Shown here one piece after another: positions 18,306 through 23,556 of a DNA stretch of 64,000 nt (positions are counted from its first letter, which is position 1; each line of letters begins with the position of its first letter). The notes beneath the pieces are model-generated. The model did not search any database. It was not told where the DNA came from and saw nothing but the letters and a program-made list of their open reading frames with translations. Source of the stretch: Ralstonia sp. A12 (GTDB taxonomy: Bacteria > Pseudomonadota > Gammaproteobacteria > Burkholderiales > Burkholderiaceae); assembly GCF_000801955.1 (NCBI RefSeq), contig NZ_JSZO01000007.1, forward strand, positions 310,001 to 374,000. The letters are read 5' to 3'. The translations under genes and the position numbers were made by a program.

Positions 18306-18890
18306 TCAGGTGCGCTCGCGGCGTTCCGACCACTTGTCGACCGTCTCGCGCGGTGCACGCGAGAGCATGTCGATCAGCTCGGCAGGGTTGTCGCTCACGT
18401 GCAGCAGGTCGGCGTGGTGGCGCTTGAGGAAGCCTTCCTGCACGGCGTGATCAATAAAGGCAAGCAGCTTGTCGTAGAAGCCCGCCACGTTCAGCAAGCC
18501 GATCGGCTTGTTGTGATAGCCGAGTTGCAGCCACGTGAAGGTTTCGAACAGCTCTTCGTACGTGCCCACGCCGCCGGGCATGGCGATGAAGGCATCCGCA
18601 CGGTCAGCCATCATCTGCTTGCGCTGGTGCATGCTGTCGACGACGTGCAGCTCGGTCAGCTCCTTGTGGCCGACCTCCTTGCGCACCAACGACTTCGGGA
18701 TGATGCCGATGACTGGGCTGCCGCCATGCAGCACCGCATCCGCCACGATGCCCATCAGGCCGACGTTGCCGCCGCCGTAGACGAGCGTGAGGCCACGCTG
18801 GACCATCTCATTGCCCAGCGCAATGGCGCCGGTCTTGTAGTCCGGGCGTTCGCCCGGGCTGGAACCGCAATAGACGCAGATCGATTTCAT
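18306..18890 (-). CDS. LOG-family protein (cytokinin riboside 5'-monophosphate phosphoribohydrolase-like)
   Basis: The 194-residue Rossmann protein of the TIGR00730/LOG family has the nucleotide-binding GGGNVGLMG (39-47) and the catalytic motif PGGVGTYEE (105-113). The family cleaves cytokinin nucleotides or AMP-like nucleoside monophosphates to base plus ribose 5-phosphate. In plant-associated relatives it can release active cytokinin, but it is also a general nucleotide-salvage enzyme. Its ATG overlaps the stop of the upstream TetR gene (ATGA), so the pair is translationally coupled. Confidence 0.9.
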   Translation of the reverse strand: MKSICVYCGSSPGERPDYKTGAIALGNEMVQRGLTLVYGGGNVGLMGIVADAVLHGGSPVIGIIPKSLVRKEVGHKELTELHVVDSMHQRKQMMADRADAFIAMPGGVGTYEELFETFTWLQLGYHNKPIGLLNVAGFYDKLLAFIDHAVQEGFLKRHHADLLHVSDNPAELIDMLSRAPRETVDKWSERRERT

Positions 18891-19600
18891 TTGGCAGGAG
18901 TGGTGGTGCCGCCGGCAGAGCCCAGGGGCGGATCGTTGCTGCGGCTGACCGCGAGCAGATCGAAGGCACGGCGAGGCTTGCCGCGCAGGTAAGGCGCCAG
19001 GATAGACAGGATGTGGTAACTCGCGCCGTGCAGGTGGTCACGGATCGCGTTCTGGTCGTTGTACTGACGCGGGTGCTGCACGAACTGGAACGACAGCCAG
19101 TAGGTGGCGATCACCACGATGTTGGTGCAGATCGCATCGACTTGGACGGGCGTGGCTTCCATCTCGCCGTCTTCAATGAACTGGTGGCAGATGTCCATGG
19201 CGAAGTGGCGCTTCTGCTCGACGATGCGCTTGAAGTTCAGCTCCAGCATGCGGTTGCGTGCCAGCAGATCGTTGATGTCGCGATACAGGAAGCGGTAGTT
19301 CCACAAGAACTCCGACATGTACTGCAGATAACCCCAGGTCTCGTCCAGTGTGGCCTTGTGGTCGTCCGGCAGCTTCAGGCGGCGCGCGATCTCTTGCTCG
19401 AACTGCACGAAGATCGAGTTGATGATGTCGTCTTTGTTGCGGAAGTGGTAGTACAGGTTGCCCGGGCTGATCTCGAGCTCTTCGGCAATCGTCGTGGTGG
19501 TGACGTTGGGCTCGCCCAGCTCGTTGAACAGGCGCAGCGATACTTCGAGGATGCGGTCGCGCGTGCGGCGTGGGCCGGTGGAATGCTGCTTGGTTTCCAT
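18887..19600 (-). CDS. TetR-family transcriptional regulator
   Basis: The 237-residue protein has an N-terminal TetR helix-turn-helix (about residues 12-60; TTTTIAEELEISPGNLYYHFRNKDDII) and an all-helical effector domain resembling the TetR_C-type regulators of Burkholderiales. The ATG at 19600 is chosen; the longer upstream frame runs through other genes. It overlaps the LOG gene by four bases, so the two share a transcript. Ligand and targets cannot be read from the sequence. Confidence 0.9.
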   Translation of the reverse strand: METKQHSTGPRRTRDRILEVSLRLFNELGEPNVTTTTIAEELEISPGNLYYHFRNKDDIINSIFVQFEQEIARRLKLPDDHKATLDETWGYLQYMSEFLWNYRFLYRDINDLLARNRMLELNFKRIVEQKRHFAMDICHQFIEDGEMEATPVQVDAICTNIVVIATYWLSFQFVQHPRQYNDQNAIRDHLHGASYHILSILAPYLRGKPRRAFDLLAVSRSNDPPLGSAGGTTTPAK

Positions 19601-19740
19601 TGAACTGCCAAGGCCGGTGGCCCTGTCTCCGTGGCGTGTGTGTGCCCGGATTATAAAAGATCGTGCTGCAGCAACGACTCCCCACATGCAGTGGGGCAGA
19701 CATTGCCAAACGTTATCGCCGCGAGTGCGCGGGTAAGCCC

Positions 19741-20205
19741 TTAGCGCAACAGCGATGCCACCCACGGCCAGGCGATCGCCACCCATGTCCCCACGCACAG
19801 CAGCAGGGCCAGCATGACGGCCGCGCTGCCGAAATCCTTGGCGCGCTTGGACAGCCCGTGCTGCTCCAGTGAGATGCGGTCGACCGCGGCTTCCACGCTC
19901 GAATTGAGCAGCTCGACGATCAGCACCAGCACCAGTGTGCCGATCATCATGATGCGCTCCACCACCGTAGCGGGAATGACGAACGCGCATGGCAACAGGA
20001 TCGCGCACAGCGTCAGCTCCTGGCGGAACGCGCTTTCCTCGTCGATGGCGAAGCGGATGCCGCTGATGGAGTTCTTGAGCGCGAACCACGCCCGCGCGAT
20101 GCCCCGGTTGCCCTTGTGCGGGTTGTCGGCCGGCGAATAGGCGCCTGCCGCGGGCGGCGTGGCTGGGTCTGCTAATGGCCGATCGGGCGGCGTGGTCGGC
20201 TTCAT
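19741..20205 (-). CDS. dgkA: Diacylglycerol kinase
   Basis: The 154-residue membrane protein of the DgkA family phosphorylates diacylglycerol to phosphatidic acid. It has a polar N-terminal extension (about 35 residues) followed by the conserved RAWFALKNSISGIRFAIDEESAFRQE amphipathic region, catalytic ELLNSSVEAAVDR, and three transmembrane helices. I chose the ATG at 20205 over an in-frame TTG at 20214. It lies 12 bases after the glycosyltransferase gene and completes a lipid trio: PlcP-like enzyme releases diacylglycerol, Agt-like enzyme glycosylates it, and this enzyme recycles it. Confidence 0.92.
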   Translation of the reverse strand: MKPTTPPDRPLADPATPPAAGAYSPADNPHKGNRGIARAWFALKNSISGIRFAIDEESAFRQELTLCAILLPCAFVIPATVVERIMMIGTLVLVLIVELLNSSVEAAVDRISLEQHGLSKRAKDFGSAAVMLALLLCVGTWVAIAWPWVASLLR

Positions 20206-20217
20206 GGAACGCAAGGC

Positions 20218-21336
20218 TTAAGCGCCCGTGGCGGTCGAGGGTTGAGCGGTCTTGGCATCGCCGGATTGTACGGCGGGCATCGGACGCAAGTGCGCCAGGA
20301 ATTGCTCGGAAGCCGCTCGCCATGAGAATTTCTCGGCGTGTGCGCGGGCCGTCGGTCGGTCGATGCGCAGCGCTTCGAGGCAGGCTTCGCGCAGGTCTTC
20401 GCGCAGCGCACCGGCCGGCGAGTCGCCCAGCACGTCGATCGGGCCCGTCACCGGGTAGGCCGCCACAGGCAGGCCGCTGGCCAGCGCTTCGAGCAGCACC
20501 AGCCCAAACGTATCCGTGCGGCTCGGGAAGACGAACACATCGGCCGAGGCGTACACCTTGGCCAGCTCCGGCTGCTTGAGCACGCCCAGGTAGTTTGCGT
20601 TCGGGTACTTTGCCTTCAGGCCGGCCAGCGCCGGGCCTTCGCCCACCACCCACTTGGAGCCGGGCAGGTCCAGCTCCAGAAACGCTTCCACGTTCTTCTC
20701 CACGGCCACGCGGCCGACGTACAAGAAGATCGGGTGAGCCGTGTTGAGTACGGTGCCGCGCTGGGAGGTGAAGACGTCCAGGTCTACGCCGCGCGTCCAC
20801 AGCACGCCGTTGGTGATGCCGTAGTCGGCGAGGTCTTTCAGCACCACGGGCGTTGGCGCCATCACCGCTTGAGCGGGGCTATGGAACCAGCGCAGGAAGC
20901 GATACGTCCAGGCCAGCGGAATGCCGAAGCGTGCCTGCACGTACTCCGGAAAGCGCGTGTGGTACGCCGTCGTGTAGGGCAGCTTGTGGCGTAGCGCATA
21001 GGCGCGTGCGGCCAGGCCCAGCGGGCCTTCGGTGGCGATGTGCAACGCCTGTGGGGCGAACTGTTCGATGCGCTCACGCACGCGCTTGGCCGGCAGGATC
21101 GAGAGGCGGATTTCCGGATACGTCGGGCACGGCACCGTCTTGAATTCGAGCGGCGTGATCATGTCGACGATGTGGCCCATCGCTTCAAGCTCACGGCGCG
21201 TCTGAGTGAGGGTACGGACGACGCCGTTGACCTGCGGTTCCCAGGCATCGGTGACGATCAAGACTTTCACGGGCTCTCCTTGGGGGGTAGGTTGGGCGGC
21301 GGCAGGCTGCGCAAGGTCGATGTTGGTGTTCGTCAT
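20218..21336 (-). CDS. GT4-family glycosyltransferase, Agt-like (candidate diacylglycerol glycosyltransferase)
   Basis: The 372-residue GT-B enzyme has N-terminal VLIVTDAWEPQVNGVVRTL, HIATEGPLGLAARAY and TTAYHTRFPEYVQARF in the acceptor domain. The donor domain has YVGRVAVEKNVEAF and the E-x7-E region FPSRTDTFGLVLLEALASG. These segments recall Agrobacterium/Rhodobacterales Agt, which glycosylates diacylglycerol during phosphate limitation. The ATG at 21336 has GGAAG at suitable spacing; an ATG at 21348 overlaps the upstream stop. It follows the PlcP-like gene directly. The lipid acceptor is inferred; a sugar-polymer acceptor is the main alternative. Confidence 0.82.
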   Translation of the reverse strand: MTNTNIDLAQPAAAQPTPQGEPVKVLIVTDAWEPQVNGVVRTLTQTRRELEAMGHIVDMITPLEFKTVPCPTYPEIRLSILPAKRVRERIEQFAPQALHIATEGPLGLAARAYALRHKLPYTTAYHTRFPEYVQARFGIPLAWTYRFLRWFHSPAQAVMAPTPVVLKDLADYGITNGVLWTRGVDLDVFTSQRGTVLNTAHPIFLYVGRVAVEKNVEAFLELDLPGSKWVVGEGPALAGLKAKYPNANYLGVLKQPELAKVYASADVFVFPSRTDTFGLVLLEALASGLPVAAYPVTGPIDVLGDSPAGALREDLREACLEALRIDRPTARAHAEKFSWRAASEQFLAHLRPMPAVQSGDAKTAQPSTATGA

Positions 21337-21347
21337 GTGGGCTTCCA

Positions 21348-22400
21348 TCAGGCGGCAGCCGCAGCGGCACGGCGGGCGCGGCGGGAGGTGGGCGGTGCGT
21401 CGAGCAGGTGCGTCCAGTAGACGATCTGCAGTTCGCCTTCCATGGTTTCGACCAGGGCGGAGAGGCTCTCCACCCAGTCGCCGTCGTTGCAATAGAGCTG
21501 ACCGTCGATCTCGCGGATCTCGGCCTTGTGGATGTGCCCGCAGACCACGCCATCGCAGCCGCGGCGGCGCGCTTCGTCGGTCATCACGCGCTCGAACGAG
21601 TTGATGAAGTTGACCGCGTTCTTGACCTGATGCTTGAGGTATTGCGACAGCGACCAGTACGGAAACCCCAGCCGCACACGGATGCTGTTGAAGTGCCGGT
21701 TCATCGCCAGGATGAAGGTGTAGAGCGTGTCGCCCACGTAGGCGAGCCAGCGCGCGTGCTGCATCACGCCGTCGAACAGATCACCGTGCACGACCCATAG
21801 GCGTTTGCCTGTGGCGGTCACATGTACCGCATCTTCCGCGACTTCGATATCGCCGAAGTTCAGACCATGGAACTGGCGCGCCATCTCGTCATGGTTGCCC
21901 GGGATGAACACCACGCGGGTGCCCTTGCGCGCGCGGCGCAGCACCTTCTGCACCACGTCGTTGTGCGCCTGTGGCCAGTACCAGCCCTTGCGCAGTTGCC
22001 AGCCGTCGACGATGTCGCCGACGAGGTACAGCGTGTCGGATTCGTTGTGCTTGAGGAAGTCGAGCAGGTAGTCGGCCTGGCAGCCGGCGGTGCCGAGGTG
22101 GATATCCGACAGCCAGATGGTGCGGTAGCGGTGAATTTTTTCGGCAGGTGGGTCGGCGTCCTTGTCGGCCAACTGGTCGGGTACCAGGGCCGGGATTGGT
22201 GCCGAGGCGGGTGCCTCGTGATCACGCACATCGCCGCGGCCTGCAGGTACGGCCGAGCCCAGCGCGCCGGCGGCGAGTCCGGCGGCCATTTGCATCAGAG
22301 GCGGTGGAGCGTTCCAGTCGGAACCGGTGAGGGGGGCGGCGCGAAAGCGTTGCGCGAGGCGGCGAAGAAAACCAGGGCTGGGCAGATTTGGCAGGACCAT
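21348..22400 (-). CDS. PlcP-like metallophosphoesterase (candidate phospholipase C)
   Basis: The 350-residue calcineurin-like phosphoesterase has metal ligands Asp99-x-His101 (WLSDIHLG), Asp129 (LVGDIVDGW), Asn169-His170-Asp171, His205 (VVHGD) and His289-x-His291 (CGHIH). It is close in appearance to the COG2908 subgroup that includes Sinorhizobium PlcP, not to short LpxH. PlcP cuts phospholipid head groups to give diacylglycerol under phosphate stress. About 85 low-complexity residues precede the domain, so the true start could be later (for example Met36). It is the first gene of the trio and has Pho-box-like repeats upstream. Confidence 0.82.
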   Translation of the reverse strand: MVLPNLPSPGFLRRLAQRFRAAPLTGSDWNAPPPLMQMAAGLAAGALGSAVPAGRGDVRDHEAPASAPIPALVPDQLADKDADPPAEKIHRYRTIWLSDIHLGTAGCQADYLLDFLKHNESDTLYLVGDIVDGWQLRKGWYWPQAHNDVVQKVLRRARKGTRVVFIPGNHDEMARQFHGLNFGDIEVAEDAVHVTATGKRLWVVHGDLFDGVMQHARWLAYVGDTLYTFILAMNRHFNSIRVRLGFPYWSLSQYLKHQVKNAVNFINSFERVMTDEARRRGCDGVVCGHIHKAEIREIDGQLYCNDGDWVESLSALVETMEGELQIVYWTHLLDAPPTSRRARRAAAAAA

Positions 22401-22454
22401 GTCGGCAACAGAGGCTGCGTTGGACGGATTTCGCCACCGCTGCGTGAATAAGCC

Positions 22455-22481
22455 GTGTCAGAAACATGACCGTCACATGAC
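22455..22481 (-). promoter_or_regulatory. Candidate Pho box (three 11-bp-phased repeats)
   Basis: On the minus strand GTCAT occurs at 22481-22477 and 22470-22466, and GACAC at 22459-22455, each offset by exactly 11 bases. PhoB boxes are 11-bp direct repeats with a TGTCA core, so spacing and core match, though the flanking bases are GC-shifted. The site is 55-81 bases upstream of the PlcP-like ATG, where PhoB would replace a -35 box. A weak -10 (TTATTC) lies just downstream. Confidence 0.55.
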
Positions 22482-22536: not shown

Positions 22537-23556
22537 TCAAGGAGATGAGGCGGGCGGGGTGCCTTCGATGCGTGTCAGTTCTGCCAGCACGGCATCGCGC
22601 ACGTGTGCGTCGCATAGCAGCGACACATGGCCGATACCGGAGAACGGCACGTGTCGCGCACCCTCTAGCCAGGACGCACCGGCCGGCCCGACGATGGAGT
22701 CGTGCCACGAGAAGATCGATGTGATACGCGCCCGTACGGCCGGCGTTTCGGATGCTGCAAGCTGACGCAGCCATGCGCTGGCCCAGGCCATCTGCCGCAC
22801 GTTGCGCCCGCGCCCACTGCGCGCCATCGCCGTGCCGCGATGTGGCGTGCCAAGCGTGATGACGTGGGCGATCGGGCAAGCATCCGATGCTTGCCGCAGC
22901 AGCGCACGTGCAGCCAGCCCGCCCATGCTGTGGCAAAGCAGTACGGGCGCACGGCCGTATGCATGCGCCATCCGAGCGGCAACCGTTGCGATGTCGTGGG
23001 CGTAGTCGTCAATGTCACCCAGCAATGGCATCAGATCGATGGCCTCGATCGGGTGACCGGCGGCGGCCAGATGTTTTTGCATCGGCAACCACACCGCACG
23101 GTTGCAACCGTACCCGTGGATCATCAGCACAGGCACACGCGTGCCATCATCTGTTGCCGTATCGAGCGCCGCCTGAGCGCGAAACGGCTGCAACACATTG
23201 AACATCCAAGCCACCGACACGCATTCACGCAGCCAGCAGGCGATGAAGCCGGCCACGCCGATGCGCTGCTCGCGCGGCACGGGCATGCGGTCCCACACCG
23301 GGTCATCCGGAATGGCCGTGCCCAGACTTGTGGATGCAATGAGGAATGCCCAGCCCACCGAGACGAGATAGCCGAGCACCAGTGCCGCTGCGGCAACGGC
23401 AGCCGCGCCCCACCAGTTCAGGTCGCCCCAGCGATGCGCTGTCCATGCGACCGCCAGCGTCGCCGCGCATTGCAGTGCCACGGCAATGCGGCGCGCGTTG
23501 GCTGCCGTCAGCGAAGCGAGGGGCGTGGAGGAGGTCGGCAGATCGGCGCGCGTCAT
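22537..23556 (-). CDS. Alpha/beta-hydrolase (lipase/esterase-like) with N-terminal membrane segments
   Basis: The 339-residue protein has two likely transmembrane segments (about 22-42 and 48-76), then an alpha/beta-hydrolase domain. The oxyanion-hole motif is MIHGYGCNRAVW (His147), the nucleophile elbow is CHSMGG (Ser210), and a late His lies in GIGHVSLL. It resembles triacylglycerol lipases and PGAP1-like hydrolases; the substrate is unknown. It is the last gene of the leftward sigma-factor cluster, 30 bases after the RDD gene. About 135 bases separate it from the PlcP-like gene. Confidence 0.85.
   Translation of the reverse strand: MTRADLPTSSTPLASLTAANARRIAVALQCAATLAVAWTAHRWGDLNWWGAAAVAAAALVLGYLVSVGWAFLIASTSLGTAIPDDPVWDRMPVPREQRIGVAGFIACWLRECVSVAWMFNVLQPFRAQAALDTATDDGTRVPVLMIHGYGCNRAVWLPMQKHLAAAGHPIEAIDLMPLLGDIDDYAHDIATVAARMAHAYGRAPVLLCHSMGGLAARALLRQASDACPIAHVITLGTPHRGTAMARSGRGRNVRQMAWASAWLRQLAASETPAVRARITSIFSWHDSIVGPAGASWLEGARHVPFSGIGHVSLLCDAHVRDAVLAELTRIEGTPPASSP

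Follow-up and report, generated by a model that had tools for sequence, protein, structure and literature searches.

The plcP-agt-dgkA gene set of Ralstonia sp. A12, a probable phosphate-starvation membrane-remodelling operon usual in the Burkholderiaceae

Genes at the locus

The 64,000-nucleotide stretch of Ralstonia sp. A12 DNA analysed here (contig NZ_JSZO01000007.1, positions 310,001 to 374,000; hereafter the window), part of a genome of 6.10 Mb in 60 contigs, carries three minus-strand open reading frames that lie almost abutting in the order plcP, agt and dgkA, behind a Pho-box-like site (Table 1), and that are considered here as a candidate operon for remodelling membrane lipids when phosphate is scarce. 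An initial annotation had described three leftward genes nearly touching each other, and all three reading frames and their codons were verified. In the agt frame an ATG at 21348 overlaps the plcP stop codon (TGATG) and an alternative GTG at 21270 has AAGGAG just upstream; the GTG appears the more likely start, because the Polynucleobacter and Burkholderia loci have an ATG at the equivalent place. The stop codon of agt lies at 20218 and the dgkA ATG at 20205, 12 nucleotides downstream (codons checked). Of 15 loci examined at this junction, five (two from Burkholderia, one from Caballeronia, and one each from an uncultured Bordetella and another bin) offer an in-frame start for dgkA that shares 4 nucleotides with the stop of agt, so that an apparent gap there can be a longer DgkA N-terminus.

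Table 1. Positions in the window of the genes and site discussed in the text.
Feature	Position	Strand	Description
Pho-box-like site	22455-22481	-	three half-sites at 11-bp spacing: GTCAT, GTCAT, GACAC
plcP	21348-22400	-	intracellular phospholipase C (predicted), calcineurin-like metallophosphoesterase fold; PF00149; position of the start codon uncertain, core conserved from about residue 88 on
agt	20218-21348	-	GT4 glycosyltransferase, diacylglycerol glycosyltransferase type (predicted); PF13439, PF13692, PF00534; alternative start GTG 21270
dgkA	19741-20205	-	integral-membrane diacylglycerol kinase (predicted); PF01219
TetR-type regulator gene	18887-19603		follows dgkA
LOG-type gene	18306-18890		follows dgkA, after the TetR-type gene

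Our sequence analysis identifies the product of the first gene as PlcP, as the initial annotation had proposed, with a predicted phospholipase C activity. The protein scores 43.9 bits on PF00149 (Pfam), and the motifs beginning at residues 98, 128, 168, 203 and 287 are presumably its metal motifs. It is 53.5% identical to the PlcP of Sinorhizobium meliloti (over 243 residues) and 53.8% identical to that of Pseudomonas aeruginosa, two proteins that share 48.1% identity with each other, and its closest named matches are from Ralstonia pickettii SSH4 (93%) and Ralstonia sp. TCR112 (92%). The P. aeruginosa reference is a stretch in which an adenylate/guanylate cyclase gene neighbours plcP and agt, and which, from this neighbourhood, we take to be PA3219-PA3218; the S. 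meliloti reference is a stretch in which plcP lies near an acyl-homoserine-lactone synthase gene and a LuxR gene, and we assume from these neighbours that its PlcP is the tested enzyme. The identity computed here for the two reference proteins comes near the value of 46% that passages of PMC8528852 give for PA3219 against the S. meliloti PlcP.

It is hardly conceivable that the phosphoesterase is instead LpxH, an enzyme of lipid A synthesis, and that the operon is an envelope operon, although homologues are labelled UDP-2,3-diacylglucosamine diphosphatase in 24 of 31 plasmid records (the other seven have no annotated feature there) and LpxH chains (three sequences) are the only sequence matches in the PDB at E 0.001. 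On two curated LpxH models the protein remains far under the cut-offs (36.5 bits against 190.35, and 42.7 against 134), a separate LpxH gene is present elsewhere in the genome (241 bits on TIGR01854), and in a tree of 59 rows one branch with a Shimodaira-Hasegawa-like approximate likelihood ratio (SH-aLRT) support of 100 parts 48 PlcP sequences, among them those of the window, S. meliloti and P. aeruginosa, from 11 LpxH sequences. The LpxH assignment was rejected at the sequence level, and the tree check against LpxH that the initial annotation had suggested thus gave no grouping with that family. Since the splitting branch is very long and the tree holds 11 of 13 LpxH loci (L135 and the partial L143 missed the profile), it gives the separation of the two families rather than a detailed history. 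Public records appear commonly to misname PlcP as LpxH, as in the plasmid records above, and a correction would follow.

A PlcP-like gene is also found in the Pelagibacter phage Mosig EXVC030M (MT647606.1:94129-94866), where it is annotated as UDP-2,3-diacylglucosamine hydrolase. It shows 47% identity and scores 336 bits with the PlcP profile, and a putative phosphate transporter gene adjoins it back to back, which makes it a candidate phage-borne lipid-remodelling gene.

The glycosyltransferase, Agt-like according to the initial annotation, is assigned by our comparison as the orthologue of the characterised Agt, and transfer of glucose or glucuronate to diacylglycerol is predicted for it. 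It shares 49.5% identity over 323 residues with Agt1 of P. aeruginosa and scores 592 bits on the Agt profile, on which Agt1 reaches 467 and the four GT4 paralogues of the window genome that register reach about 41 or less. In the tree the Agt sequences form one side of a branch (support 83, very long outgroup branches) against four other GT4 proteins of the same genome. Use of another lipid (ceramide or phosphatidylglycerol) or of another sugar, with products other than monoglucosyldiacylglycerol or glucuronic acid diacylglycerol, is improbable. It would agree with the modest branch support over those long outgroup branches, with best NCBIfam matches that are other glycosyltransferases, all well under their cut-offs, and with the broad specificity reported in PMC8231724 for a Pelagibacter glycolipid glycosyltransferase. 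The position behind plcP that the window protein shares with Agt1, together with their identity, argues against it, as does the coupling of agt to plcP, which would make the diacylglycerol, in 120 of the 123 plcP-bearing family genomes considered below.

Distribution of the three-gene set

The conservation of the locus was examined in 150 Burkholderiaceae genomes, including that of the window, in which plcP was called at E 1e-20 or better and all neighbourhoods of plcP were inspected with profiles (agt within 400 nucleotides and dgkA within 900 nucleotides downstream on the same strand; four doubly fetched loci, L002, L027, L029 and L030, were dropped). The gene plcP is present in 123 of these genomes. 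It is directly followed by agt in 120 of them; in L316, where plcP is broken, agt lies farther off, and in L308 and L315 it is missing. A downstream dgkA is found in 111 of the 120 testable genomes (L316 included) and is absent in nine, three others being too short to judge. The plcP-agt-dgkA order is therefore the usual arrangement in the Burkholderiaceae, with DgkA as a family-wide third member. In a second set of 80 named loci, whose species are partly shared with the family sample, agt adjoins plcP in 76 and dgkA adjoins in 61 of the 75 testable; the 14 loci that lack dgkA are the four testable Thiobacillus/Hydrogenophilales, both Pigmentiphaga, three Polynucleobacter, one Lautropia, a Steroidobacter bin and three Burkholderiales bins.

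For comparison, 80 loci from 79 genomes beyond the family were selected out of about 139 matching non-family genomes, with one or a few loci per family group. Fifty of them have agt, three in a diverged form (L155, L156 and L222; 232-247 bits), and dgkA adjoins in two, downstream in L222 and upstream in L221. With 78 of the 80 lacking a neighbouring dgkA, the switch as such does not require DgkA. Both L221 (dgkA upstream of plcP-agt) and L222 (dgkA downstream of plcP and the diverged glycosyltransferase gene) belong to small proteobacterial genomes, and the placement of dgkA in them suggests independent joining. When mapped on a tree of 141 selected PlcP sequences, 135 of them of known state, the character of having dgkA behind agt changes state 7 times, compared with a mean of 35.5 when the states are shuffled. 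We infer that DgkA entered the operon either in an ancestor within the betaproteobacteria or on several occasions close to that point, and was occasionally lost, with partners elsewhere.

The initial annotation had held that the three-gene set is little described for this lineage. This agrees with the open-licence literature, in which, by titles and the starts of abstracts among the matches listed, no description of plcP-agt-dgkA in the Burkholderiaceae was found, the nearest being those on Pseudomonas and on marine HIMB59; a search for PlcP together with Ralstonia gave, among the matches listed, titles on papain-like proteases or plant defence, and the term 'PlcP' occurs 0 times in passages of PMC11828411. 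The set itself is more widely conserved than had been supposed.

A different neighbourhood is seen on a plasmid of Mitsuaria sp. 7, where plcP stands beside ppk1, followed by a Ppx/GppA gene, and neither agt nor dgkA is annotated there.

The Pho-box-like site upstream of plcP

Upstream of plcP the half-sites GTCAT (22477-22481), GTCAT (22466-22470) and GACAC (22455-22459) lie 54-81 nucleotides before the ATG, and both the letters and the positions of the 11-bp-phased repeats given in the initial annotation are exact. The full pattern GTCAT-N6-GTCAT-N6-GACAC occurs once in the window, free of mismatches, and is still the sole match when up to three mismatches are allowed, a setting at which shuffled sequences average 1.59 matches. 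For the exact pair GTCAT-N6-GTCAT, 15 occurrences were counted in the 6.1-Mb genome against about 5 expected from base composition, and with one mismatch 231 against 90 for the reversed pattern. The pair alone is weak evidence, and it is therefore the conservation and position of the site that give it strength.

Sites were scored as the best sense-strand match to CTGTCAT-N4-CTGTCAT (consensus from passages of PMC8528852) within 350 nucleotides upstream of the conserved PlcP core. Among the 121 plcP upstream regions of the family, 115 reach at least 10 of 14 positions, 94 at least 11 and 37 at least 12, compared with 7.1%, 1.0% and 0.1% of shuffled plcP upstream regions at 10, 11 and 12. The corresponding control counts are 3, 0 and 0 of 121 for agt and 1, 0 and 0 of 111 for dgkA, and 5 of 42 regions upstream of RDD genes reach 10 or more. 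Outside the family at least 11 of 14 is reached in 18 of the 50 loci with agt and in 6 of the 30 without it. Within the genus, 27 of the 29 columns of the box are invariant across 16 Ralstonia loci versus 57 of 114 flanking columns (Fisher p 1e-5; some of these loci are possibly of the same species). The repeats are thus conserved across related genomes, in genus and family, the check that had been proposed for them.

As a positive control, a box of this type, scoring 11 or 12 of 14, precedes the main pstS gene of the genus in 15 of 15 loci, and five diverged pstS paralogues score 8 to 10. One PhoB exceeds its cut-off in the genome (344.8 bits against 296.2) and lies about 3.6 kb from the main pstS on contig C56. 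The plcP loci of P. aeruginosa and S. meliloti reach just 10 of 14, and the consensus score is thus modest even under published PhoB control. Our data suggest that the segment is a putative PhoB site and likely the phosphate-starvation switch of the operon. That the repeats are something other than a PhoB site, and that the operon is constitutive or obeys another regulator, such as the TetR-type protein whose gene stands behind the operon in many relatives (46 of the 80 named loci), is very improbable: GTCAT pairs are fairly common, as the exact copies in this genome attest, but the box is conserved over its flanks in Ralstonia, is enriched on the sense strand across the family and resembles the pstS boxes.

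Genome-wide, only the 15 exact GTCAT pairs were inspected as further Pho-box candidates. One of them (C6:60638-60653) lies 334 nucleotides upstream of a PF04185 phosphoesterase gene, whose product may be a secreted phospholipase C belonging to this regulon.

DgkA and a model of lipid remodelling

The product of dgkA scores 106 bits on PF01219 and aligns to the solved DgkA structure 3ze4 over residues 37-150 of P0003, with the conserved core present; it is the only PF01219 match found in the whole genome. In the family sample a PF01219 DgkA is present in 128 of the 150 genomes, in 121 of the 123 with plcP versus 7 of the 27 without it (Fisher p 5e-17), a co-occurrence that is not independent evidence because the genomes are related to each other and many of those without plcP are small. 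Genomes were taken as plcP-less from their absence in the plcP match list, and two of them are not named in the DgkA output. The two plcP-bearing genomes without DgkA are G057, an assembly of 70% completeness, and G085, in which agt is missing as well. On the whole, DgkA is probably tied to the diacylglycerol that PlcP would make.

The plcP-less family genomes above 3 Mb whose size is printed (G006, G036, G046 and G080) also lack a PF01219 DgkA, as if the operon had been lost at once (for G080, plcP is absent from the match list).

These observations lead us to regard the locus, with good though incomplete confidence, as a phosphate-starvation membrane-remodelling operon in which DgkA would re-phosphorylate diacylglycerol that is unused or left over. 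The PlcP-Agt part belongs to a known lipid-remodelling switch, of which the conserved DgkA makes a variant, and the initial annotation, which had seen such a switch here, read nearly every point correctly. This view is based on gene identities assigned by homology, on the close linkage and conservation of the genes, on the conserved Pho-box-like site and on the presence of a PhoB/Pst system in the genome; PhoB binding, co-transcription, the enzyme activities, the lipids produced and the direction in which flux passes through DgkA are what we infer from them. When phosphate is scarce, phosphorylated PhoB would bind the half-sites at 22455-22481 and turn on plcP-agt-dgkA. PlcP would then split phospholipids into diacylglycerol and a phosphoalcohol, whose phosphate could be salvaged, and Agt would add glucose or glucuronic acid to the diacylglycerol to render phosphorus-free glycolipids. 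Diacylglycerol not consumed by Agt, or still present when phosphate returns, would be re-phosphorylated by DgkA to phosphatidic acid, a step that would keep this bilayer-disturbing lipid low and make the switch adjustable and reversible. The return of surplus diacylglycerol to phosphatidic acid is the most likely role of DgkA in our reading, and its action as a safety and return valve is the mechanism we favour over that of a housekeeping gene riding on the transcript.

In the latter case DgkA would be a general recycler of diacylglycerol, for example from glucan or envelope modification, that shares the transcript and has no special role under phosphate starvation. We consider this unlikely, though by no means negligible. 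In its favour, as the sole PF01219 protein of the genome it would serve every source of diacylglycerol, seven of the plcP-less family genomes retain it, and none of the 111 regions scored upstream of dgkA has a Pho-box-like match of 11 of 14 or better. The position of dgkA behind agt in most of the family, however, together with the possibly overlapping agt and dgkA codons, the lack of DgkA in the four large plcP-less genomes named above and the adjoining of dgkA and plcP in the distant loci L221 and L222, argues for a specific role, and no EptA_B_N gene, a possible other source of diacylglycerol, was found in the genome of the window. A consensus scan for sigma-70 promoters found none for dgkA and none for plcP either, and is therefore uninformative on this point. 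An extension of the valve mechanism seems possible, if rather doubtful: PlcP and DgkA may be co-induced in the Burkholderiaceae as a two-way valve, with diacylglycerol as the branch point between glycolipid (through Agt, which would save phosphate) and phosphatidic acid (through DgkA, in a phosphate-neutral exchange of headgroups, e.g., from phosphatidylethanolamine to phosphatidylglycerol or cardiolipin), and the sole DgkA of the cell would thereby come under phosphate control.

A close characterised counterpart is the PlcP-Agt1 pair of P. aeruginosa (PA3219-PA3218), which, like the genes described here, has plcP and then agt behind a Pho box and produces glycolipids (passages of PMC8528852); unlike them it has no dgkA, and an opposite-strand adenylate/guanylate cyclase gene follows agt1. 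Behind the S. meliloti plcP neither agt nor dgkA is annotated in the reference record. Among the six plcP arrangements given for marine bacteria in passages of PMC4796936, the type 2 plcP-agt of marine heterotrophs shows the same order and Pho boxes but no kinase, a word that occurs 0 times in the main text. Methylosinus plcP-agt and Agrobacterium Agt and PlcP are covered in passages of PMC9239053 and PMC3972451, respectively. In Pseudomonas putida BIRD-1 DagK is counted with PlcP among the lipid proteins raised at low phosphate, which recalls the present set, and the discussion calls PlcP, DagK, OlsA and OlsB PHO-dependent; the passages of PMC5082522 describe no operon with plcP and agt there. 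The genomic island fGIp-C of HIMB59 likewise combines a glycosyltransferase, a diacylglycerol kinase and an 'LpxH', with pst and phoRB on the same island, but these are alphaproteobacteria, the authors class the glycosyltransferase and the kinase as having no direct phosphorus function, and a three-gene operon is not described in passages of PMC10734472. In Burkholderia sensu lato putative Pho boxes precede olsB in 21 of 43 genomes (passages of PMC7814305).

The mcr-3 enzyme leaves diacylglycerol behind. Its gene, a lipid A modification gene, is closely linked to dgkA (mcr-3-dgkA; PMC7559476), and as part of another pathway it is a precedent for the pairing only.

Several points weigh against the proposed role of the operon. 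The phosphorylation of diacylglycerol costs phosphate, which is odd under phosphate starvation, and the paradox arises of a cell that induces an enzyme spending ATP to put phosphate back on a lipid that has just been stripped of it. The Pho-box scan uses a published consensus and not measured binding, its loci are related so that the counts are not independent, and 27 of the 121 family loci stay below 11. The co-occurrence of dgkA and plcP is confounded by genome reduction, agt is missing in 2 of the 123 plcP genomes and dgkA is not behind agt in 9 of 120. Among the 80 loci outside the family 30 lack agt and 78 lack a neighbouring dgkA, and L222, one of the two with dgkA, has a diverged 'agt'. 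DagK is not named among the proteins absent in the P. putida regulator mutant in passages of PMC5082522. For the one low-phosphate lipid experiment found on a family member, Paraburkholderia xenovorans LB400, passages of PMC7814305 give ornithine lipids ('data not shown') and do not mention the formation of glycolipids. The lipid remodelling published so far, as found here, concerns marine bacteria, rhizobia and Agrobacterium, a methanotroph and Pseudomonas, and the operon extends it, in testable form, to a family with soil, plant-associated and freshwater bacteria.

The genes on either side do not appear to belong to the operon. The TetR-type and LOG-type genes stand behind dgkA in Ralstonia, Cupriavidus and most Burkholderia-type loci (in L037 the TetR-type gene is inverted). 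They were rejected as operon members, with 137 nucleotides between dgkA and the TetR-type gene and neither gene found in the Polynucleobacter or Thiobacillus loci, and are likely separate units. An alpha/beta hydrolase gene (22537-23556) was likewise rejected, as the Pho box separates it from plcP and no such gene was found at the loci of Burkholderia, Paraburkholderia and Caballeronia; its place just upstream of the box is shared by Ralstonia and Cupriavidus loci.

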